IMG/VR virus record: IMGVR_UViG_3300028025_005522
Coordinates: 1 to 32,738 of that record
Strand: one strand, 5' to 3'
Source of the DNA: a virus
DNA: 32,738 nt
The notes beneath the pieces were generated by a model. The model was not told the DNA's origin and searched no databases. It saw only the letters and a list, made by a program, of their open reading frames with translations. The translations under genes were made by a program, and so were the position numbers. Below are positions 2,498 through 28,355 of this stretch, piece by piece (position 1 is the first letter of the stretch; each line of letters begins with the position of its first letter).

Positions 2498-5400
2498 ATG
2501 AGTTTACAACAAACTGTATTACGCGTTCAAACAAATAAACCTAGTGCTATAACTGTAACAGGAACTACAGGTTTGAATTTCTATGATTCAATTGGTTCGG
2601 TAACTTACGCAGGTACTGGTACATCAGATGACCCATATACAGGTTCATTTGGTACAAATGGTAGTAGTTTTTGGGTTCAGGCTGTTTGTCCTGGCACAAT
2701 TTATTTTGACACAATATTATATTCTGTTGGTATTGGAGCAAATTACTTTTCGTTATTTATAAGACGACCTGAAGATGCATTTTTAAAAAATGTATTTAAT
2801 AGTTTTAATTCAGTTAATGCTGATTATTTTAACATCAATACAGGTGATGTGGTTGTATTTGAACAAAATTCAACAGGTTCTTCAGCTGGTTTGTTTGAAG
2901 TTTACTTTATTCCAAACCAACAAGAGGTAAATTATACCGTACCTGAATATGATTTTTTAGACTTATACGGTGATATTCCAATTACAATTAATAAATCATT
3001 TGCAGAGATTGAAGATATTTCCAAAAGAAATTCAGATTATTCTGTAGGTGTTAAAATACCTGGTTCAAAAAAGAACAATAAGTTCTTTGAAAACTTCTTT
3101 GAAGTTGACCAAACATCTTTATACTTTGATGTAACAAAAAAAGTACCTTGTAATGTATTAGTAGATGACGAAAGTTACTTTACAGGATATTTGAAATTAA
3201 ATAGTACATCTGTACTTAATAGTAAAATAGAATATGATGTTACATTATATTCAACAGTAGGAGATTTATATGGTTCAATCGGTAACAACCTTTTAAAAGA
3301 CTTAAACTTTAGGGACCCTGATTATTTTATGAACCATTATTTCAACAGAGATAATGTGTTACAATTTTGGAGATATGAAACATTAAAATCAGATAAAGAA
3401 GTACCATCAAATTATTTTTATCCTGTTGTACACAATGGTTACAATTACCAAGTAACGGGTAACACAACATTTGTATTATACACAGGTATAACAGGTACAT
3501 CATTATATACTACAACTACATTAGGTAGTTGGGCAAACACCGCTGCTGCTTATGCTGCGGGTGTTGATAGATATAGAATTAATTCACCTCAAGATGGTGT
3601 TAGAGATAATCAATTAAAACCAACATTAAACGTTTATTCGTTATTACAATTAATTTTTAGACAATACGGTTATTCAATCAAATCAGATTTTATGACCAGT
3701 CCGTGGATGAAGTTACTTTATATGTATGGTTACTTTAGTGATGACAATACAAAACTAACATATAAAACACCTCAAGTTCAAACATTTGGATTAGAAGGTG
3801 TAGAAGTTATTTTAGTTGACGATATAGTTGCAGAATCTGAGTTTAATTGTTCAACAACATATCCACGTACAATTCATAATTGGACCTTGTATGTGGTTAA
3901 AAAAGGTACAGGAACACCAGTGTTATGTAATACAGATATTAATCTATATTGGAATTTTTATTCATACCCTTGTTATGGTAGTTCATTTTCTTATCAACAA
4001 CCTATAAACATACCAGCAAACACAACTGGTACTACATTTAGTTATACACAAGAACAATGGGTTGATTGTGGATATGGTTGTCCATTCCAACCTGAATATA
4101 TATACAACTTTGGTTTTGATAATATTACATCTAATGCTGGATTATCGAACAAAGCATTATCTTATTTACCAAGACCTTCAAATCAGGTTATACAAATAAA
4201 TGATGGGGATTATGTTGACTTTGGTTTAATTATAGACCAAAACATCAAACAGATAGACGTATTATCCTCTATAGCTAAGAAATTTGGACTTTTATTTATT
4301 CCTGACCCTGATGTTCCAAATCAAATTATAATTGAACCTTATGACTATTACGTGGGTACTGGTGACATTTATGATTGGACTGATAAAATATCAAGGGATA
4401 AAGGATTTACCGTTCAACCAGCAAGAAACTTTATTGAATCTGAATTAGTTTTAACTGATATGGAAGATGGTGATGATGGTAATAAACAATTTAAAGATAG
4501 TAATACAAGAATATATGGAGAAAATAAAGTATATAATCCAACAGAATTTAAATCTTCTACAAAGAAAATTGAAACAACTTTTTCGTCTGAAGTAATAAGA
4601 AAATGGAATCCAAATAATAATCCTGAGTTTGCACCAAATGATGTAGGTATCCCATTGGGAATTAACTACACAGAAAGTTCACAAGAAGTTGGAACGGTGG
4701 TAGATTGGATTTATAAGGGTGTAAAAACAAAACCTAAACTATTTTTTAATTTAGGTAACTTTTCTCCATTCTTAAATGACCCAACAGATCAATTTGGTTT
4801 AACAGGAGTTACCACAGGATATTTTAGAGTAACTAAAGATGATGGAACAAGTTCATCAGGTGCATTAATTTCACCAGTAATATCTCATACAATGCCGATG
4901 GGTAACCCTGACAGCAATAAAATTAATAATGATAGTATATGTGTATTATTTAACTCAGAAGAACCAACAACAATTGCTGGTGATAGTATAAGTTTATTTA
5001 ATGCATATACAAATCAAGATATGTACAATTTATTCTATGAAAATAGAGTAACAAACGCATTTGATAAGAACACAAGATATTTGGATGGTTTCTTTGATTT
5101 GAAATTACCAGATGTAAAGAATCTTAAAGCAAATGACTTAATTAAGATTAACAACCAATACTTTACTTGGAATAGTATTAATGATTTTAATTTAACCAAT
5201 AGAGAATTAACAAAAGTTCAATTGGTTCAATATAATCAAGGTGTTAAATCTTATCCAACAAGATATTTCCAATATTACTATTGTGATACACCATCTACTG
5301 TGTATAAATTCAAGACAGAATTTACAGGAACAGAAAGTATCTATGATAGTTTATACTATTGGAGTATCCTTTATGACTATTTTGTAGGAGTATTAGGTGG

Positions 5401-7813
5401 TGGTGTTAGTGGTTATACCAGTTCAATTAGATTTGGAAGTGGTGCTTCATCACCATATATTCCTTATAATATATATGAAACAACTGAAAGTCAGTATGAA
5501 AATGGTACTGCAATAGACTATAACTACGACCCACAGAGATATTACTTCTTATTACAATTAGAAGAAGAACCTGTTGACACAATTTATAACCAACAGAATG
5601 ACGTTTTCTTAATTAGTAGTGGTCAAACACTTGCAAGGATTAACGTATTTACAGGATGTACAGCGTTTACAACAACAGCATCAAGTATGGGTGCAATAGT
5701 CGGTACTTCAACAGCACCAACTGTACCAACCCCTACTCCAACACCAACACCTTCAGCAACTCCATCTGTTTCAAGTAGCAGAGTTAGAGGTTCTTTATTA
5801 ATTACTTTTGAAGAATTATATGATTTGATAGGAATAGATTTAGTTGAAATTTATGTAAATGGATATAAACGAGATTTTTTCAGTTTAGATATTGAGGAAA
5901 AATATTCATATCAAATATATAGCGGAGATACTGTAACCATATCAATTACATCAAATGGTCCAACACCAACGTTTAATGCGGTTAGATATGACTTTTCAAT
6001 TGATGAAGTTTCGGGAAATAGAGGTATATCACCAGTTGTAGTTACAGGTACAACAAGTCAAGTAGGAAACGTATATTCTAAAACATATTCAATATTACCT
6101 AATTCAAATGATTATAATTTTGAATATTTGGTTAATGTTGAAAGTTTTACACCAGTAACACCAACACCTACACCAACAATAACAATAACACCAAGTGTTA
6201 CACCAACTAATACACCGACACCATCAATTACGCCAAGTGTTACTCCAACAAATACTGTAACACCAAGTGTTACACCAACTAATACTGTTACACCAAGTGT
6301 TACACCAACTAATACTGTTACACCAACTATAACACCAAGTGTTACACCAACAAATACTGTAACACCAACAAATACATTAACACCTACACCAACACAAACA
6401 TTTAGACCTTGTGTTGAATATAGTGTGAATAATAGTAGTGGAAGTTCATCTACAATTGAATATACTGATTGTAATGGAAATGTTCAAACTACAATTGTTG
6501 GTTCAGGTGCAACTGTTATTATTAGTGCACTATTAGGATTAATTAATTGTATAATTAATTGTGGATCAACAACAATTACTCCAATACCAACACCAACCCC
6601 AACTCCAACTAAAACTATGACACCTACACCTACAAATACTGTTACACCAACTATAACACCTAGCGCATTACCTTGCTTTACGGAATTAACAGGTTTTACT
6701 TATGGTGCTAGTCCTGGCCGTGCATATACATCACATTTACAATCAGATGGTAAAATATTAATTTCAGGTCCATTTGATAGTTATGATGCAAGTACCACAT
6801 CAAATAATTTAATCAGAATAAATTCTAATGGTACTTTTGATTCAAGTTTAATAAGTGGAGGATTTAATGATGTAAATAGATACGCATTTACAATTGAAAC
6901 TCAATCAGATGGTAAAATATTAATCGGTGGTAATTTTACACAATATCCATTAGCAACAACTAGAAATAGAATTGTAAGATTAAATTCAGATGGTAGTGTT
7001 GATTCATCATTTAGTATTGGAACTGGTTTTGACGGAACAGTATATAAAATACAAATACAATCTGATGGTAAAATTTTAGTAGCTGGAAATTTTGGAACAT
7101 ATAATGGTACATCAGTAGGTGCTATTACAAGATTAGATACTAATGGTACTATTGATACATCATTTAGTGGAGGAACTGGTTTTAACGCAATAGTAAATGA
7201 TATGATATTACAGTCAGATGGTAAAATATTTGTAGCAGGTTCATTTACAACATATAACGGAACATCAATTATAGGTACTGCAAGATTAAATTCAGACGGT
7301 ACATTAGACGGAACATATTCTGGACAAACCGTCATTCCTTTTGCAGGTGGAACACAAGTTTGTTCAACGCAATCAACTGGAAAATATATTGTTGCAGGTT
7401 CATTTAGTCAATTTAATGGAAGTAGTACATCTAATAGAATTGTAAGATTAAATTCAAATGGTTCTGTTGATACATCATTTACACCTAGTATAAGTTTTAA
7501 TTCATTATTAGGTGGTTCACCTATTATATATTCAGTTGAAGTTACAAGTACAGATAAAATAATGGTTGGAGGTAATTTTAATATACCATATAGTGGTGTA
7601 ACAAGATTAAATTCAGATGGTACTACTGATACTTCATTTAATCCTGGTACAGGTACTTATAATTCATCTAGTAATTCAATAAGTCCTATTAGAACAATAA
7701 CAATACAAAGTAATGGACTTATAAATCTTGGAGGTTCATTTGAAGTATATAATGGTATATTTAGAAATGGATTAATACAAGTACAATCAAATGGTAATAG
7801 TAACCTTTGTTAA
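2498..7813 (+). CDS. Giant tail-tip/adhesin protein with Pro-Thr linkers and delta-60 repeats
   Basis: A 1771-residue protein, the largest in the window. Residues about 150-290 contain a segment with EDISKRNSDYSVGVKIPGSKKNN and a following FEVDQTSLYFDVTKKVP, the kind of conserved N-terminal module found in tail-associated proteins of Bacteroidota phages. This is followed by about 780 residues of beta-rich sequence. From about residue 1075 it becomes modular: a first Pro-Thr linker, a small beta domain (about 1095-1215), a long TPSVTPTNTV-type linker (about 1217-1302), a short Cys-containing domain with four cysteines, a third linker (about 1361-1388), then seven delta-60 type repeats to the C-terminus. 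Delta-60 repeats form propeller-like or adhesin domains in bacterial surface proteins. The likely job is a tail-tip base carrying an extended receptor-binding arm. Confidence 0.7.
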   Translation: MSLQQTVLRVQTNKPSAITVTGTTGLNFYDSIGSVTYAGTGTSDDPYTGSFGTNGSSFWVQAVCPGTIYFDTILYSVGIGANYFSLFIRRPEDAFLKNVFNSFNSVNADYFNINTGDVVVFEQNSTGSSAGLFEVYFIPNQQEVNYTVPEYDFLDLYGDIPITINKSFAEIEDISKRNSDYSVGVKIPGSKKNNKFFENFFEVDQTSLYFDVTKKVPCNVLVDDESYFTGYLKLNSTSVLNSKIEYDVTLYSTVGDLYGSIGNNLLKDLNFRDPDYFMNHYFNRDNVLQFWRYETLKSDKEVPSNYFYPVVHNGYNYQVTGNTTFVLYTGITGTSLYTTTTLGSWANTAAAYAAGVDRYRINSPQDGVRDNQLKPTLNVYSLLQLIFRQYGYSIKSDFMTSPWMKLLYMYGYFSDDNTKLTYKTPQVQTFGLEGVEVILVDDIVAESEFNCSTTYPRTIHNWTLYVVKKGTGTPVLCNTDINLYWNFYSYPCYGSSFSYQQPINIPANTTGTTFSYTQEQWVDCGYGCPFQPEYIYNFGFDNITSNAGLSNKALSYLPRPSNQVIQINDGDYVDFGLIIDQNIKQIDVLSSIAKKFGLLFIPDPDVPNQIIIEPYDYYVGTGDIYDWTDKISRDKGFTVQPARNFIESELVLTDMEDGDDGNKQFKDSNTRIYGENKVYNPTEFKSSTKKIETTFSSEVIRKWNPNNNPEFAPNDVGIPLGINYTESSQEVGTVVDWIYKGVKTKPKLFFNLGNFSPFLNDPTDQFGLTGVTTGYFRVTKDDGTSSSGALISPVISHTMPMGNPDSNKINNDSICVLFNSEEPTTIAGDSISLFNAYTNQDMYNLFYENRVTNAFDKNTRYLDGFFDLKLPDVKNLKANDLIKINNQYFTWNSINDFNLTNRELTKVQLVQYNQGVKSYPTRYFQYYYCDTPSTVYKFKTEFTGTESIYDSLYYWSILYDYFVGVLGGGVSGYTSSIRFGSGASSPYIPYNIYETTESQYENGTAIDYNYDPQRYYFLLQLEEEPVDTIYNQQNDVFLISSGQTLARINVFTGCTAFTTTASSMGAIVGTSTAPTVPTPTPTPTPSATPSVSSSRVRGSLLITFEELYDLIGIDLVEIYVNGYKRDFFSLDIEEKYSYQIYSGDTVTISITSNGPTPTFNAVRYDFSIDEVSGNRGISPVVVTGTTSQVGNVYSKTYSILPNSNDYNFEYLVNVESFTPVTPTPTPTITITPSVTPTNTPTPSITPSVTPTNTVTPSVTPTNTVTPSVTPTNTVTPTITPSVTPTNTVTPTNTLTPTPTQTFRPCVEYSVNNSSGSSSTIEYTDCNGNVQTTIVGSGATVIISALLGLINCIINCGSTTITPIPTPTPTPTKTMTPTPTNTVTPTITPSALPCFTELTGFTYGASPGRAYTSHLQSDGKILISGPFDSYDASTTSNNLIRINSNGTFDSSLISGGFNDVNRYAFTIETQSDGKILIGGNFTQYPLATTRNRIVRLNSDGSVDSSFSIGTGFDGTVYKIQIQSDGKILVAGNFGTYNGTSVGAITRLDTNGTIDTSFSGGTGFNAIVNDMILQSDGKIFVAGSFTTYNGTSIIGTARLNSDGTLDGTYSGQTVIPFAGGTQVCSTQSTGKYIVAGSFSQFNGSSTSNRIVRLNSNGSVDTSFTPSISFNSLLGGSPIIYSVEVTSTDKIMVGGNFNIPYSGVTRLNSDGTTDTSFNPGTGTYNSSSNSISPIRTITIQSNGLINLGGSFEVYNGIFRNGLIQVQSNGNSNLC
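5719..5768 (+). repeat. First Pro-Thr linker-coding repeat
   Basis: Simple repeat of CCAACA/CCNACN-type codons coding for a short PTPTPTPTPSATPS linker inside the giant tail-tip gene. It separates the upstream structural body from the first C-terminal domain. Confidence 0.75.
6148..6405 (+). repeat. Tandem 30-bp repeat coding a TPSVTPTNTV linker
   Basis: Imperfect tandem units of 30 bp, each coding for TPSVTPTNTV or a close variant, with shorter TPT and TIT units on the edges. Period and frame are kept, and variation is mostly at third codon positions. In the protein this is a long, extended, disordered linker between two globular domains. Confidence 0.85.
6575..6665 (+). repeat. Third Pro-Thr linker-coding repeat
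   Basis: Again Pro-Thr codons (PTPTPTPTKTMTPTPTNTV), joining the four-cysteine domain to the delta-60 repeat domain. The unit AATACTGTTACACCAACTAT is shared with the longer repeat upstream. Confidence 0.8.
6730..7810 (+). repeat. Seven delta-60 type coding repeats
   Basis: Seven in-frame repeats whose hallmark (Q)SDGKILVAGNF or a variant begins near 6739, 6902, 7057, 7211, 7369, 7550 and 7706, spaced 154-181 bases. Each unit also carries R(L/I)NS(D/N)GT-(V/L/T)D(T/S)SF between hallmarks. The first four are closest to consensus; copy 5 has STGKYIVAGSF, copy 6 has STDKIMVGGNF and copy 7 SNGLINLGGSF, so the array decays toward the C-terminus. Confidence 0.85.
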
Positions 7814-8971: not shown

Positions 8972-11809
8972 ATGGCTAAGAAACAATTAGACATTATTGT
9001 TGGTGTTGATAGTTCACAGATAGATAATGCGGTAGCAAAGACTGGTGAATTAAAGAAACTGAGTGATAATATATCAATTCAATATGATATTGATGGTAAA
9101 CCTATTGATGTTGTTATTAATAAATCCCTCAACTTACAAAAACAAGTTAGGGTTTTAACAGCAGAATTACGTAAAACTAAGGAAGGTACCGCAGAATTTA
9201 AGTTATTATCAACAGCATTAAGTGATGCAAATGACCAATTAGCTAAGAGTAATGCAAAATCAAAAGACTTATTTGGTTCATTATCTTTATTACCAGGTCC
9301 TATTGGACAATTTGCTAGTCAAATTGGTGGAGCAATTGATTTATTAAAGGTATTTTCATCATTTAGTTTAAAGGACCTACAGTTCCAATTAAAGGAAACA
9401 GGTAATGATATTGTTGATATTGCTAAAGGATTTTTGGGATTAAACAGTACCACAAATGAAGTTACAAATGTTACAAATCAAGCAGCAAAAGCAACTGAAA
9501 ATCTTAGTGATAATTTAATAGACGTATCAACTAATGCTGCTGCCACATCAGGAGCAATCAGTAGTACTGCAAAACAAACTCAATTATTATCAATTGAAAC
9601 GGATGCATTAGGTAATAAAACAATTAATGCTGTCAAGCCTATTAAGGATATGACCGCTGCTGAATTACAATTATTTAATGCAGAAAGACAAGCGGCAATA
9701 GGGGCTGGTTTACAAACGGCTGCAACAGATGGACTTGTTGCGGCAGAAAAAACGGCAACATTTTGGACAAGTACTTTAGGTAAAACAATTCAAGGTGTTT
9801 TAATTGGTACAGGTATTGGTATTGCAATTGTATTAATTGGTGAATTAATTAGTTTAATATATAAATGGGTTTCAAGTACAGAGGACGCAGATATAGCCAA
9901 TAAAAGATTAACTGAAACAATAAAAGAACAACAAAGGATTCTTGAAAATGACCAACAAGCAATTGAACTATCAATAAGATTAAACGTTGCTAGAGCTAAG
10001 GCTGCAGGTAAAACAGAACAAGATATATTTGAAATTACTAAACAAGGTGGTAAAGATAAGTTGGCATTACTTCGTGAATTTGATAAACAATTATACGAAG
10101 ATCAAAAGAAAATAACCAACGATAGAAAATTAACAGAAGAAGATAGAGCAAAATTATCAGAAGAAATTAATGCAAAAATCCTTAAAAACGGTCAAGATAT
10201 TACAAAACAGATTATCGAAAACGGAATTATGGAATATGATAATCAAGCATTATTATTGAATAAGAGAAAAGAACTGGTTAAGAAATTTGGTGAGGATGAA
10301 TATAATAGAAGATTAAAAGAATTAGATGCACTTATCCAATTAGAGATAGATAAAGATGCAACAGATAAAAAAGTATTACAAGGATATTTGGATGAAAAAA
10401 GACGTATCCAAACTAAACACGATAAGCTAACATTTGCTGAAGCAGAGTTAATGCGTCAACAGAATGCTAAAAAAGTTAAAGATGCTTTAGAAGAAGATAC
10501 TAAACGTGTTGAAGCATACAATTCAAAAATTGCTGATATTGAAATTGCAGCAATTGAGGATGAACAAAGAAGACAAGAGGAAGCAAGACTTAAGAAATTA
10601 AATGACGATAAAACGGCATTACAATACGATTATGAGTTTCAAAAACGTACCAAAGAAGAACAAATGAAAGTCTTTAAGGATATGGAAACTCAATATGCAA
10701 TGGACATTCTTAAAATTAAAGATTCATTCTACATTAAACAATTCCAATTAATACAGGAAGCTGCATTAAGAGAAAAGGAATTAGCAACAAGTGTAAAAGA
10801 ACAGGAATTAGATAATAATAGAATTAGATTAGAACAACAAAATGATTTTAACACTGTTTATGGTGATTTTATCTTTGGTAACAAAGGTTTAAAAGCACAG
10901 TGGGAAAAGTATTTTGTTGATTTAAGAGAAATATATAACAATGAGTACGTTGCAACTGAGGAACAATTAGTTAAAGAAAAGGAACAACTTCAGGTTGATT
11001 TAGATGGTAAGAAAATTACTCGTGAATCTTATGCAGCACAAATCAAAATTATTGAGGATAAATTAATCCAAAATAGACAACAAAATACTCAAAGACAATT
11101 AGAATTAGATAGATTAGAATTAGATTCTAAACGTGCAAATGCAGATATGACCATTCAAGTAGGTGAAAGACTTGCTTCAGCATTATCTGCAATTGCTGGT
11201 AAAAATAAACAAATCCAAAAGGCGGCAGCACTTGTTGAAGCTACTATTGCAATTGCACGTATCATTACAGATACATCAAGAGCTATTGTTGCGTTCTCAG
11301 CATCAGTTGCACCATTAGGACCAGCAGGTATCCCAATTGCTGCAGCCTACGCTGTTAAAGCAAAGATTAGTGCAGGATTAGGAATTGCAACAATTATAGC
11401 ACAAGGTATTGGTAAACTTAAATCAATTGATGAAAGTGATAGTGGTGGAACATCAGGAACCGCAAGTTCACAACAATCAAATAATTTAGGTAGAGGATAT
11501 GCAAGAGGTGGATATATAGATGGTCCACGTCACGCACAAGGTGGAACAATGATTGAAGCTGAAGGTGGTGAAGCTGTAATGACAAGAGGTGCTGTAACGA
11601 TGTTTGCACCTTTATTATCAACTCTAAACCAAATGGGTGGTGGAACATCATTTGCACCAAACTTGATGGTTACAAGACCTGATAGTCCAATTGTAAGTAA
11701 CCCTGCACAAGAACAATCACCATTAATAATGAAAACATATGTTGTATCTAAGGATATGACAAACGAACAAGAAAAACAGGCTAGACTGAAAAATCTAAGC
11801 ACTTTATAA
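8972..11809 (+). CDS. Tail tape measure protein
   Basis: A 945-residue protein with the architecture of a tape measure. There is an N-terminal charged, helical region, a hydrophobic segment at about residues 270-298 (GVLIGTGIGIAIVLIGELIS), then a long coiled-coil-like stretch rich in Glu, Lys and Gln (about 310-740). A second long hydrophobic region (about 752-816, with ATIAIARIITDTSRAIVAF) follows, and then a Gly-rich tail with GRGYARGGYIDGP and GGEAVMTRGAV, which is typical of tape measure C-termini. In the family it sets tail length and is ejected through the tube at infection. At roughly 1.5 angstrom per residue the tail would be near 140 nm, pointing to a long-tailed virion. A 1-base gap separates it from the small basic gene downstream. 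Confidence 0.85.
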   Translation: MAKKQLDIIVGVDSSQIDNAVAKTGELKKLSDNISIQYDIDGKPIDVVINKSLNLQKQVRVLTAELRKTKEGTAEFKLLSTALSDANDQLAKSNAKSKDLFGSLSLLPGPIGQFASQIGGAIDLLKVFSSFSLKDLQFQLKETGNDIVDIAKGFLGLNSTTNEVTNVTNQAAKATENLSDNLIDVSTNAAATSGAISSTAKQTQLLSIETDALGNKTINAVKPIKDMTAAELQLFNAERQAAIGAGLQTAATDGLVAAEKTATFWTSTLGKTIQGVLIGTGIGIAIVLIGELISLIYKWVSSTEDADIANKRLTETIKEQQRILENDQQAIELSIRLNVARAKAAGKTEQDIFEITKQGGKDKLALLREFDKQLYEDQKKITNDRKLTEEDRAKLSEEINAKILKNGQDITKQIIENGIMEYDNQALLLNKRKELVKKFGEDEYNRRLKELDALIQLEIDKDATDKKVLQGYLDEKRRIQTKHDKLTFAEAELMRQQNAKKVKDALEEDTKRVEAYNSKIADIEIAAIEDEQRRQEEARLKKLNDDKTALQYDYEFQKRTKEEQMKVFKDMETQYAMDILKIKDSFYIKQFQLIQEAALREKELATSVKEQELDNNRIRLEQQNDFNTVYGDFIFGNKGLKAQWEKYFVDLREIYNNEYVATEEQLVKEKEQLQVDLDGKKITRESYAAQIKIIEDKLIQNRQQNTQRQLELDRLELDSKRANADMTIQVGERLASALSAIAGKNKQIQKAAALVEATIAIARIITDTSRAIVAFSASVAPLGPAGIPIAAAYAVKAKISAGLGIATIIAQGIGKLKSIDESDSGGTSGTASSQQSNNLGRGYARGGYIDGPRHAQGGTMIEAEGGEAVMTRGAVTMFAPLLSTLNQMGGGTSFAPNLMVTRPDSPIVSNPAQEQSPLIMKTYVVSKDMTNEQEKQARLKNLSTL

Positions 11810-25179: not shown

Positions 25180-26505
25180 ATGGAAATAAAGTTAAAATTA
25201 TTTAAGAAACAACTTGAAACATTTAAAATACTTCTTGACAACACTCATAGGGAAGTGTTATTTGGTGGTAGTAAGGGAAGTGGAAAATCCTATTTGGGTT
25301 CTGTTTGGGTATTATATATGTGCGTTACTTATCCTGGCATTCGTGCACTCATAGGTCGTACAGTACTCACTCAACTCCGTGTGACCACAATTAAAACTCT
25401 ATTAGATTTATTTCAGGAGTGTGGAATCAATCAGGAACACTATACTTATAACCAACAATCAAATGAAATTAAATTTTGGAACGGTAGTGAGATTGTGTTT
25501 AGGGACCTTCAGTATAATCCTAGCGATCCCTTTTACAATTCTTTGGGTGGGTTGGAATGTACAATTGCTTTCATTGATGAGGTTGCGCAAGTATCTCGTG
25601 AAGCGTATGACATTGTTCGTTCACTACTTCGTTATAAAATTACGGAATATAAACTAACACCAAAGTTATTTATGTCCTGTAACCCATCACAAAACTGGTT
25701 AAAACAGGAATTTTATATACCATATACACAGGGAACATTAGAATCACATAAGGTATTTGTACCTGCGTTACCGAGTGACAACCCAAACCTCGCACCAGAA
25801 TATTTGGAAATTCTAAGAACATTACCAACAAAACAAAAGAAAAGATTGTATGATGGTGATTGGAACTACGATAGTGAATCAGATAGTCTATTTGAATTTG
25901 ATGATATTATAAGTTCAGTATTTAGAACGGTTCCAAAACCTGAAGATAAACGATACGCAAGTATTGACGTTGCACGTTTCGGTTCAGATAGGTCCGTAGT
26001 AGTGATTTGGAGTGGACTGGTTGTCCTTGAAGTGTTCATCTATAGTAAACTATCAACCACACAATTATCATCCGAAATTCAGGAGTTAATTTCAAAGTAT
26101 GGAATCCATCCATCTAACTGTGTTGTGGATACTGATGGTGTAGGTGGAGGAGTTGGGGATATTATACGAGCAACAAACTTTGTAAACAATTCATCACCAT
26201 TACATAAACAGAACTTCTCCAATCTTAAATCACAATGTTACGTTAAGTTAGCTGAGTTGTTTAAGGAAGGTAAGATAAGTTTAAACATATTGGACCCATC
26301 AACGGTGGATGACTTGACACAAGAACTATTAAGTGTTAGATTAAAAGATACAGATAAAGATAATAAAGTAGCTGTTCACTCAAAGGATGAGATGAAGAAG
26401 ATACTTGGTAAATCACCTGACATATCCGATGCATTAATGATGCGTATGTTATTTGAGGTGAAAAACCATAAATCAACAGGAAAATATTCAATTAGTTTCA
26501 TATGA
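25180..26505 (+). CDS. terL: Terminase large subunit
   Basis: A 441-residue packaging motor with all hallmark motifs. Walker A is GGSKGSGKS (residues 29-37), Walker B with catalytic glutamate is TIAFIDE (128-134), and the coupling motif is FMSCNP (164-169). The C-terminal nuclease has RYASIDVARFGSDRS (Asp263), CVVDTDGVGGGVGD (Asp317/319) and SPDISDALM (Asp414/417). Length is normal for this family. The N-terminal lead is very short, so ATP binding begins almost at once. It is preceded by the small subunit and overlaps the next gene by four bases (ATGA). The motor packages DNA through the portal encoded at 17128, 8 kb away. Confidence 0.95.
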   Translation: MEIKLKLFKKQLETFKILLDNTHREVLFGGSKGSGKSYLGSVWVLYMCVTYPGIRALIGRTVLTQLRVTTIKTLLDLFQECGINQEHYTYNQQSNEIKFWNGSEIVFRDLQYNPSDPFYNSLGGLECTIAFIDEVAQVSREAYDIVRSLLRYKITEYKLTPKLFMSCNPSQNWLKQEFYIPYTQGTLESHKVFVPALPSDNPNLAPEYLEILRTLPTKQKKRLYDGDWNYDSESDSLFEFDDIISSVFRTVPKPEDKRYASIDVARFGSDRSVVVIWSGLVVLEVFIYSKLSTTQLSSEIQELISKYGIHPSNCVVDTDGVGGGVGDIIRATNFVNNSSPLHKQNFSNLKSQCYVKLAELFKEGKISLNILDPSTVDDLTQELLSVRLKDTDKDNKVAVHSKDEMKKILGKSPDISDALMMRMLFEVKNHKSTGKYSISFI

Positions 26506-27233
26506 TAAAATTTAAATTAGAAGAAAAGGAGTACACGTTACCCGATATTATAAACATAGATAGTTATGTAAAGATTTTTAAGGTCAAAGACTTTTTTGAG
26601 GAGGATTATTTTGCAGCAAAACTAATTAGTATTGTATGTGAATGTCCAATGGAGGACCTATTACAGTCAGATTATGATAAGGTAAACTATCTTGCATCCC
26701 ATATAATGACATTAATCCCTATAGGTAAACCTAAATTTGTGGATAAATTTGAGATTGATGGAGTAACTTATGGATTTTTTCCTAAGTGGCAGGACCTATC
26801 CTTTGCAGAATATGTGGATATGGATACAATCTCAACCAAAAAAGAGAGTGAACTATTGGATTTACTACACATCTTAATGTCAATTATGTACAGACCAATA
26901 GTTAATATTAGGTCAGAACACGACTTTGATATAGAAAAATATGATATAGATAGTATGAAAGTCAGGGCCGAACTGTTCAAAAAGAAGTTAGATATTAAGA
27001 TTGTTCTTGGAGCACAGTTTTTTTTTATCAACTACGCAAAGAGATATTTAAATTATTTCCAGCTGTCTTCGATCAAGACATTGTCAATATGGACGAAGAT
27101 AAAGCTAGGTTGGCGTTTGAGGAAGATGATATGGGGAATAGTTTTCAAAAAGTCTATGGGTGGTTCATCGTCGTCAATAAACTTGCAGGAAATGATTTTA
27201 CAAAGCACGAGTACATCTACAAGAAAAACATAA
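26502..27233 (+). CDS. Putative tail assembly chaperone-like protein, zero-frame product
   Basis: A 243-residue reading frame starting in the terL stop (ATGA). Residues 1-175 form a coherent acidic domain: FKLEEKEYTLPDI, a core ending LASHIMTLIPIGKP, a domain with VDKFEIDGVTYGFFPKWQDL, and AELFKKKLDIKIVLGAQFFF. The block FEIDGVTYGF-PxW-(L)-F-EY(V)DMDT followed by a helix ending MYRP resembles T4 gp26/gp51-type or other tail and baseplate chaperones. Beyond residue 175 the zero frame continues for 68 residues of poor, Ser/Thr/Lys-Trp composition, while the -1 frame is a coherent acidic protein. A T9 run lies exactly at the switch, so both products may be made. Confidence 0.65.
   Translation: MIKFKLEEKEYTLPDIINIDSYVKIFKVKDFFEEDYFAAKLISIVCECPMEDLLQSDYDKVNYLASHIMTLIPIGKPKFVDKFEIDGVTYGFFPKWQDLSFAEYVDMDTISTKKESELLDLLHILMSIMYRPIVNIRSEHDFDIEKYDIDSMKVRAELFKKKLDIKIVLGAQFFFINYAKRYLNYFQLSSIKTLSIWTKIKLGWRLRKMIWGIVFKKSMGGSSSSINLQEMILQSTSTSTRKT
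27018..27026 (+). other. Homopolymer T9: candidate -1 frameshift site
   Basis: Nine T in a row read as TTT TTT TTT in the zero frame. A -1 slip leads straight into YQLRKEIF and a continuous open frame to 27316. An alternative is a miscounted homopolymer: ten T would fuse both parts in one frame. Confidence 0.55.
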
Positions 27234-27316
27234 TGGAAGTTCTGAATCAGTTGTCCTATCTAATCAATTATGACCAAGAACAGGAAAGGTTACAGAAAAA
27301 GATGAATAATTCATAA
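27026..27316 (+). CDS. -1 frame extension of the chaperone-like gene
   Basis: Reading from the last T of the T9 run in the -1 frame gives 96 residues: YQLRKEIFKLFPAVFDQDIV, then NMDEDKARLAFEEDDMGN, SFQKVYGWFIVVNKLAGND and FTKHEYIYKKNIMEVLNQL, ending QKKMNNS. An internal ATG at 27089 could start a 75-residue free product, but the continuous frame behind it argues for a fusion of about 271 residues. Composition is normal for a helical, acidic phage protein, in contrast to the overlapping zero frame. This matches the organisation of tail assembly chaperones, made as short and long forms by -1 frameshifting. A leader element and the next gene follow at 27334. Confidence 0.6.
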   Translation, partial: YQLRKEIFKLFPAVFDQDIVNMDEDKARLAFEEDDMGNSFQKVYGWFIVVNKLAGNDFTKHEYIYKKNIMEVLNQLSYLINYDQEQERLQKKMNNS

Positions 27317-27333
27317 TACATTTCCCTAAATTT

Positions 27334-27350
27334 TATATTTACTATTAATG
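27334..27350 (+). promoter_or_regulatory. Leader element TATATTTACTATTAATG (copy 5)
   Basis: Same TATATTTA-n-TA-n-TA core as the other copies, ending in the ATG of the next gene. It sits in a 31-base gap after the frameshifted gene. Confidence 0.4.
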
Positions 27351-28355
27351 GTCAACTATAAACAAATAATACAAGATTTAAGTGGTATTGCTTATAATCA
27401 CCAACAAATCAATTCATTTGGGTACGGTGATATAACTCAAATCACTATGGACATAGAAACACAACAGGAACCTGTATATACAAAAATGTATGTGGTACCT
27501 GGTGAAGTTGTTCTTGCACAAAATAGATTGGACTATAACTTTTCAATTATTATATTAGACCAAGTTAATAGTGACTTGTCAAACCAACAGGATGTAATGT
27601 CGGATACTTTGGAAATTACCAAAGACATATTCACCATTTTATATCAATCATACACAGCAACATTTGGTGGATTCAGTATAGACTACGAACCACTATGGGG
27701 ACCTAACGCTACACCCTTCTTAGAACGATTTGAAACGGTATTAGGTGGGTGGACATTGAACATCACCATAGAACAACCATTTGATTATAACACTTGTGTA
27801 CTTCCAATATCAGGATTAACCTTACCAACATCAGTAAATGAAGTTACATACAAACAAATTATATCAGACTTTGATGAGATTGCTAGAGCACACGAACAAA
27901 TTAATTCGTTTGGTTTTGGTGATATAGAACAGTTGACAAATGATATAAAGACAGAAGTTGAACCTGTATATACAAAAATGTATATGGTTCCAAGTCAAGT
28001 ACAATTAGCACAAAACGAGTTGATATACAACTTCCAAATAATAATAACGGACCAAATAAACAATGATTATTCCGATCAAAGAGATGTAATGAGTGACACA
28101 CTTGAGATATGTAAGGACGTATTTACAGTGTTGTATTTATCAGAGTACGAATGTGAGTGGAATATTGTTTGTACTCCATTCTTAGAAAACTATGAAACAG
28201 TTTTAGGAGGATGGTCAATGAACTTAATAATTACACAACCATTTGATTATAACAGATGTGTTCTTCCTGAACTTCCATTTGTTGTACAAAATAAGAAGTG
28301 GTATGAATTGGCTGAGTTATGGAACACAATATCAACAAGTTGGAAAAATACATAA
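27348..28355 (+). CDS. Internally duplicated virion protein
   Basis: A 335-residue protein made of two tandem copies of one domain, offset by 164 residues. Both halves contain YKQII(Q/S)D, INSFG(Y/F)GDI, EPVYTKMY(V/M)VP, a QN-L-YNF-I segment, QQDVMSDTLEI or QRDVMSDTLEI, and a closing (F/Y)ETVLGGW and QPFDYN-CVLP. The first copy holds about ten more residues near YEPLWGPNATP. DNA identity persists in short blocks (for instance CCTGTATATACAAAAATGTA in both), so the duplication is not very old. The last 25 residues (NKKWYELAELWNTI) are unique. The domain looks like a tail terminator or completion type; that is a weak inference from position between chaperone-like and fibre genes. Confidence 0.6.
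   Translation: MVNYKQIIQDLSGIAYNHQQINSFGYGDITQITMDIETQQEPVYTKMYVVPGEVVLAQNRLDYNFSIIILDQVNSDLSNQQDVMSDTLEITKDIFTILYQSYTATFGGFSIDYEPLWGPNATPFLERFETVLGGWTLNITIEQPFDYNTCVLPISGLTLPTSVNEVTYKQIISDFDEIARAHEQINSFGFGDIEQLTNDIKTEVEPVYTKMYMVPSQVQLAQNELIYNFQIIITDQINNDYSDQRDVMSDTLEICKDVFTVLYLSEYECEWNIVCTPFLENYETVLGGWSMNLIITQPFDYNRCVLPELPFVVQNKKWYELAELWNTISTSWKNT

Follow-up and report, generated by a model that had tools for sequence, protein, structure and literature searches.

A conserved -1 frameshift arrangement beside terL in a phage gene family that probably encodes a short and a long tail assembly chaperone

The gene that follows the terminase large subunit gene (terL) in a virus record from IMG/VR, 32,738 bases long (the whole stretch is referred to as the window), contains a slippery T run past which two reading frames stay open, and comparison with hundreds of homologues indicates that the run is conserved and that both frames are under selection. 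We consider it rather likely that this is a programmed -1 ribosomal frameshift gene and that its two isoforms are, most likely, tail assembly chaperones, the two statements being taken jointly. Pairs of short and long tail chaperones made by -1 frameshifting are known; this gene stands apart by its displaced position and by a dual-coding overlap that is long and selected, and no description of this frameshift was found in the open-licence papers searched. For a large family of 'unknown function' (PHROG 32199), found in phages of Bacteroidota and of uncultured, largely aquatic hosts, these findings supply a mechanism and a probable role, and ordinary gene calling splits or truncates such a frameshift gene. 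A natural, deeply conserved U_UUU_UUU slip site with a long selected dual-coding overlap is now also available for study.

The locus and its two predicted products

The features of the locus are listed below with the evidence for each.

8972..11809, + strand: tape measure protein of 945 aa (its C-terminus matches proteins annotated as tape measure in phi46:1 and TCUEAP1)
25180..26505, + strand: terL, directly upstream of the gene (PHROG terL, E=1.7e-38)
26502..27233, + strand: short-form ORF in the zero frame, 243 aa, 28.6 kDa (52-98% conserved over its full length)
26502..27026, + strand: shared N-domain, residues 1-175, with the motif GVxYGFFPNWxDLTFAEFVDMD...MYRPI (alignment; hhalign with the distant clade, E=1.9e-24)
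27018..27026, + strand: T9 run, read TTT TTT TTT in the zero frame
27020-27026, + strand: slippery heptamer T_TTT_TTT in zero-frame register, inside the T9 run (register kept in homologues)
27026..27316, + strand: -1 frame extension, 96 codons and a stop, the second domain of the long form (alignment; hhalign with the distant clade, E=6e-10)
27027..27230, + strand: zero-frame C-terminal extension, 68 codons, dual-coding with the -1 domain (alignment and selection tests)
27348..28355, + strand: downstream gene, 335 aa with two internal repeats, a probable tail terminator (judged from its position)

The start of the short-form ORF overlaps the terL stop as ATGA. An earlier note, made from the letters of the window, had pointed to the T9 run and to a -1 slip that opens 96 residues to 27316, and both observations are correct. 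The -1 frame closes with a stop codon at 27314-27316, which gives a long form of 271 aa and 32.3 kDa. In the window the zero-frame tail has a strongly basic pI of 10.9 and the -1 domain an acidic one of 5.1, a contrast that does not hold across the family.

In the mechanism that we infer, ribosomes would mostly read through the run and make the 243-aa protein, which consists of the N-domain and a 68-aa zero-frame tail, and some would move back by one base at T_TTT_TTT and produce the 271-aa protein, in which the 96-aa -1 domain follows the N-domain. The slip efficiency would set the ratio of short to long form, with the short form predominant. By analogy with lambda gpG/gpGT the isoforms would serve as tail assembly chaperones, the N-domain binding the tape measure protein and the -1 domain recruiting tail tube subunits.

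Conservation of the slip site and the origin of the long form

With either product as query, about 80 loci were found among viral contigs. The contigs L002-L004, which come from three other metagenomes and are 96-98% identical to the window, keep the T9 run and both frames intact. Among the close relatives, T_TTT_TTT stands in register in all 119 distinct sequences (52-99% identity), within a run of nine T in 104 and of seven T in 15, and where the run varies, its first codon has become His, Thr, Ser, Arg, Asp or Leu. In all closed cases of this clade the -1 extension has 96-100 codons and the zero-frame extension 62-72. The latter had been described in the earlier note as junk-like, which is not tenable for a continuation that recurs in every close relative under its own selection.

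A weak tblastn match connected the gene to gene 38 of Nonlabens (Persicivirga) phage P12024S, which adjoins the terL of that phage and has the site CTT TTT TTT TAT, with gene 39 annotated on part of the -1 ORF. Genes 38 and 39 (PHROG 32199) share with the window the N-domain after terL, the T9 site and the -1 domain, but are annotated as two hypothetical proteins with the frameshift not noted. The relatives of P12024S form a second clade that is about 20% identical to the window clade and shares both domains, and profile comparison (hhalign) joins the clades over the N-domain (E=1.9e-24) as well as the -1 domain (E=6e-10). When genome collections were searched, the first profile gave 0 matches and the second five MAG contigs. 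All 21 of the 21 divergent members compared match PHROG 32199, and the Pfam and NCBIfam searches gave weak unrelated matches only.

The first set of 323 distinct homologues, drawn from IMG/VR, a few MAG contigs and the isolated Nonlabens phage P12024S/L, was compared at the T run and in both frames. The second domain lies in the -1 frame in 323/323, and T_TTT_TTT is in register in 322/323, the remaining one (L430) having A_AAT_TTT; the run is T9 or T10 at 305 of these 322 sites. In the extended set of 387 sequences with both domains, the -1 frame and T_TTT_TTT occur together in 385, the exceptions being L430 and L150. The latter, the one sequence of the set whose second domain departs from the -1 frame, keeps the slip site and has an indel or frame break inside its N-domain, which is most likely an assembly indel. 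Elsewhere in the N-domains only 7 T runs of at least 7 were found in 157 kb, versus 322 at the site, and the Phe codons upstream are TTC in 26% of cases in the close clade and 50% in the distant clade. A canonical X_XXY_YYZ heptamer in register is therefore conserved, as is characteristic of a programmed -1 frameshift gene, and comparison strongly supports the earlier proposal of such a gene with predicted products of 243 and 271 aa.

That proposal had been paired with the alternative of an ordinary single gene in which the homopolymer was wrongly sequenced or assembled. A T9 run is error-prone in principle, but T_TTT_TTT and both open frames are present in hundreds of independent contigs as well as in isolated phages, and this alternative is therefore rejected. 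The T7 variants and the selection on both frames also speak against it, and we give it practically no weight.

No in-frame fusion of the two domains was found among 387 distinct sequences; rare single-frame forms could be missed because the sampling follows similarity to known members. Structural matches in BFVD are uncharacterised viral proteins, and single-frame long forms may exist because some of these proteins match both domain models. In addition, the C-terminus of the syntenic gene 3 of Elizabethkingia phage TCUEAP1 (L306:2164-2706) fits the -1 domain profile within a single frame (E=5.5e-6). Judging from this match, TCUEAP1_3 is possibly a frameshift-free long form, therefore the frameshift may not be universal at the deepest level.

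The -1 frame might also be a separate gene with an internal start, since the window has an ATG at 27089 that would begin a 75-aa protein. However, 173 of the 322 homologues have no ATG between the opening of the -1 frame and codon +60, and conservation begins at the slip site. The -1 ORF is unlikely to be initiated on its own, and we regard a separate gene as highly improbable.

A further alternative is transcriptional slippage: RNA polymerase would stutter on T9, and mRNAs with an extra U would encode the long form. Polymerases are known to slip on long runs of T or A (PMC3711429), and the T9 or T10 runs at 305/322 sites fit this explanation. The predominance of T9 is compatible with a polymerase contribution, and both processes may contribute. 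On the other hand, 15 homologues have T7 only, all in the register suited to tandem ribosome slippage, and one has A_AAT_TTT; these sites are probably too short for efficient polymerase slippage, yet they are canonical for ribosomes. The T7 lineages and the A_AAT_TTT site thus favour ribosomal over transcriptional slippage, and we consider the latter improbable.

Some observations speak against ribosomal slippage. U_UUU_UUU is reported to be less shift-prone than A_AAA_AAG in E. coli (PMC5009743). Frameshift sites commonly, though not always, have a stimulatory RNA structure or an SD-like element. RNAalifold, applied to nested (non-pseudoknot) pairing, reported no pairs of a conserved RNA stem-loop in 50 sequences, and in single-sequence folding the 60 nt downstream were mildly stable at most (mean z -0.7 in the window clade and +0.15 in the P12024S clade). 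A simple-motif scan detected SD-like sequences ahead of the site in only 10 of the 322 homologues.

Selection on both C-termini

Third-position divergence at four-fold sites of the homologues is 0.53 upstream of the site, 0.32 in the overlap and 0.63 past the zero-frame stop, and these differences showed 0 reversals in 200 bootstraps over 32 clusters. In the overlap of the same number of clusters, 106 zero-frame stops were expected (about 3.3 per sequence) and 0 observed. Such counts are non-independent trials because the sequences are related; 22 deeply divergent representatives are nonetheless <45% identical to each other, and for them 65 stops were expected and 0 observed. When the -1 protein was recoded with random synonymous codons, on average 1.5% of draws left the zero frame open as far as is observed. 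Within codons 191-205 the zero-frame wobble position varies at 0.44, versus 0.27 for the -1 wobble position, which is the signature of a zero frame that is more constrained there than the -1 frame.

As judged by these comparisons, both downstream frames are conserved, with purifying selection on each across a shared stretch of roughly 200 nt, therefore the locus appears to encode one N-domain with two alternative, selected C-termini. A broader reading holds that in this widespread family frameshifting switches between two functional C-termini from the same roughly 200 nt, and that the isoforms have distinct, selected activities; we regard its chances as evenly balanced. Phage genes annotated with a frameshift usually have a short overlap, with a mean of 26 nt from the site to the zero-frame stop in the SEA-PHAGES training data (PMC10885494), whereas here it is about 204 nt and dual-coding. 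The zero-frame tail of P12024S has only 25 codons past the slip.

Gene neighbourhood and the likely role in tail assembly

Among testable loci, terL is directly upstream in 142 of 150, and one family of small tail-type genes, to which the gene at 27348-28355 belongs, is downstream in 297 of 306. In phages phi46:1 and TCUEAP1, too, terL is followed by a gene in this position and then by two small genes, structural proteins and the tape measure gene, and gp16 of Cellulophaga phi46:1, which occupies the same position, showed no convincing homology.

Chaperone genes of tailed phages yield short and long forms by -1 frameshifting (PMC5009743). Comparison points to the same output here, short and long products on a common N-domain, and lambda gpG/gpGT of a tailed phage likewise has one N-domain, a -1 slip near its end and a second domain on the longer product. 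The likeness is one of arrangement. The window gene differs from gpG/gpGT in its U_UUU_UUU site and in adjoining terL rather than the tape measure gene. The distance from the tape measure gene, which the earlier note had already remarked upon, is confirmed by the coordinates (8972-11809 for tape measure, 26502-27233 for this gene); instead of lying just upstream of the tape measure gene, as expected of a chaperone gene, it sits between terL and the tail-type gene.

Other frameshifted tail proteins were compared as well. P2 gpE/E+E' and Mu gp41 (Phage_TAC_7 group) are also small tail proteins, and a -1 frameshift is annotated for P2 E; E+E' stops where the P2 tape measure gene T begins, and gp41 lies just before the tape measure gene of Mu. 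The short and long forms of HK97 gp13 again arise by a -1 frameshift, and PDB 2OB9 is titled HK97 tail assembly chaperone. The hhalign probabilities of the window gene against Mu gp41, P2 gpE and HK97 gp13 were no higher than those against unrelated controls, and Phage_TAC_7 gave a single stray match (E 0.066). A PDB sequence search with the N-domain profiles yielded nothing convincing. At the level of structure, the zero-frame model (pLDDT 77) has 2OB9 as its top PDB match, a weak one (Foldseek E 0.8; Z 2.8 over 72 residues), and the -1 domain model matched none of the 3 chains compared with Z >=2.

The earlier suggestion of a tail assembly chaperone thus agrees with the architecture and the operon; sequence homology to the HK97, Mu or P2 proteins was not detected, and the HK97 fold match is weak. 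Given this combination, we propose a G/GT-like action with moderate confidence and assign the gene to no known family. A lambda G/GT-like chaperone pair is the best-supported function, and the family is probably an unannotated one of tail assembly chaperones. The tail role, argued by analogy, is suggested with moderate strength by the operon of terL, this gene and a tail-type gene, by the tape measure gene in the genome, by 2OB9 and by the G/GT arrangement.

The same frameshift could instead serve a non-chaperone function, for instance in a packaging or head-tail accessory protein that works with the neighbouring terminase. The near-constant adjacency to terL and the lack of detectable homology to known chaperones would fit such a protein. 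Nevertheless, the downstream neighbour and the gene order match the tail module of phi46:1 and TCUEAP1, short and long pairs made by -1 frameshifting are typical of tail chaperones in tailed phages (PMC5009743), and no second frameshifted chaperone candidate was noticed in the window. We regard a non-chaperone role as doubtful, though with an appreciable chance, and prefer the tail assembly chaperone.

Several further observations were made on related phages and on the window. In Flavobacterium phage 6H (L303:10352-10927) a homologue of the N-domain was detected (hhalign E 3.8e-6), and the roughly 300 nt behind it are unannotated and have an open -1 frame; by eye, a canonical slip site was not found where the -1 continuation would need one. 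The 335-aa protein encoded at 27348-28355 is an internal duplication, and its unit seems to be single (138 aa) in gene 41 of P12024S. The module order of the window is unusual between 267 and 20000, where large structural proteins (908-2494 and 2498-7813) precede the tape measure gene; the second of these has 1771 aa, with long Pro-Thr repeats and, after them, repeated units of the QSDGKI type. In the window a likely capsid gene also comes before the portal gene, and TCUEAP1 has a comparable order.
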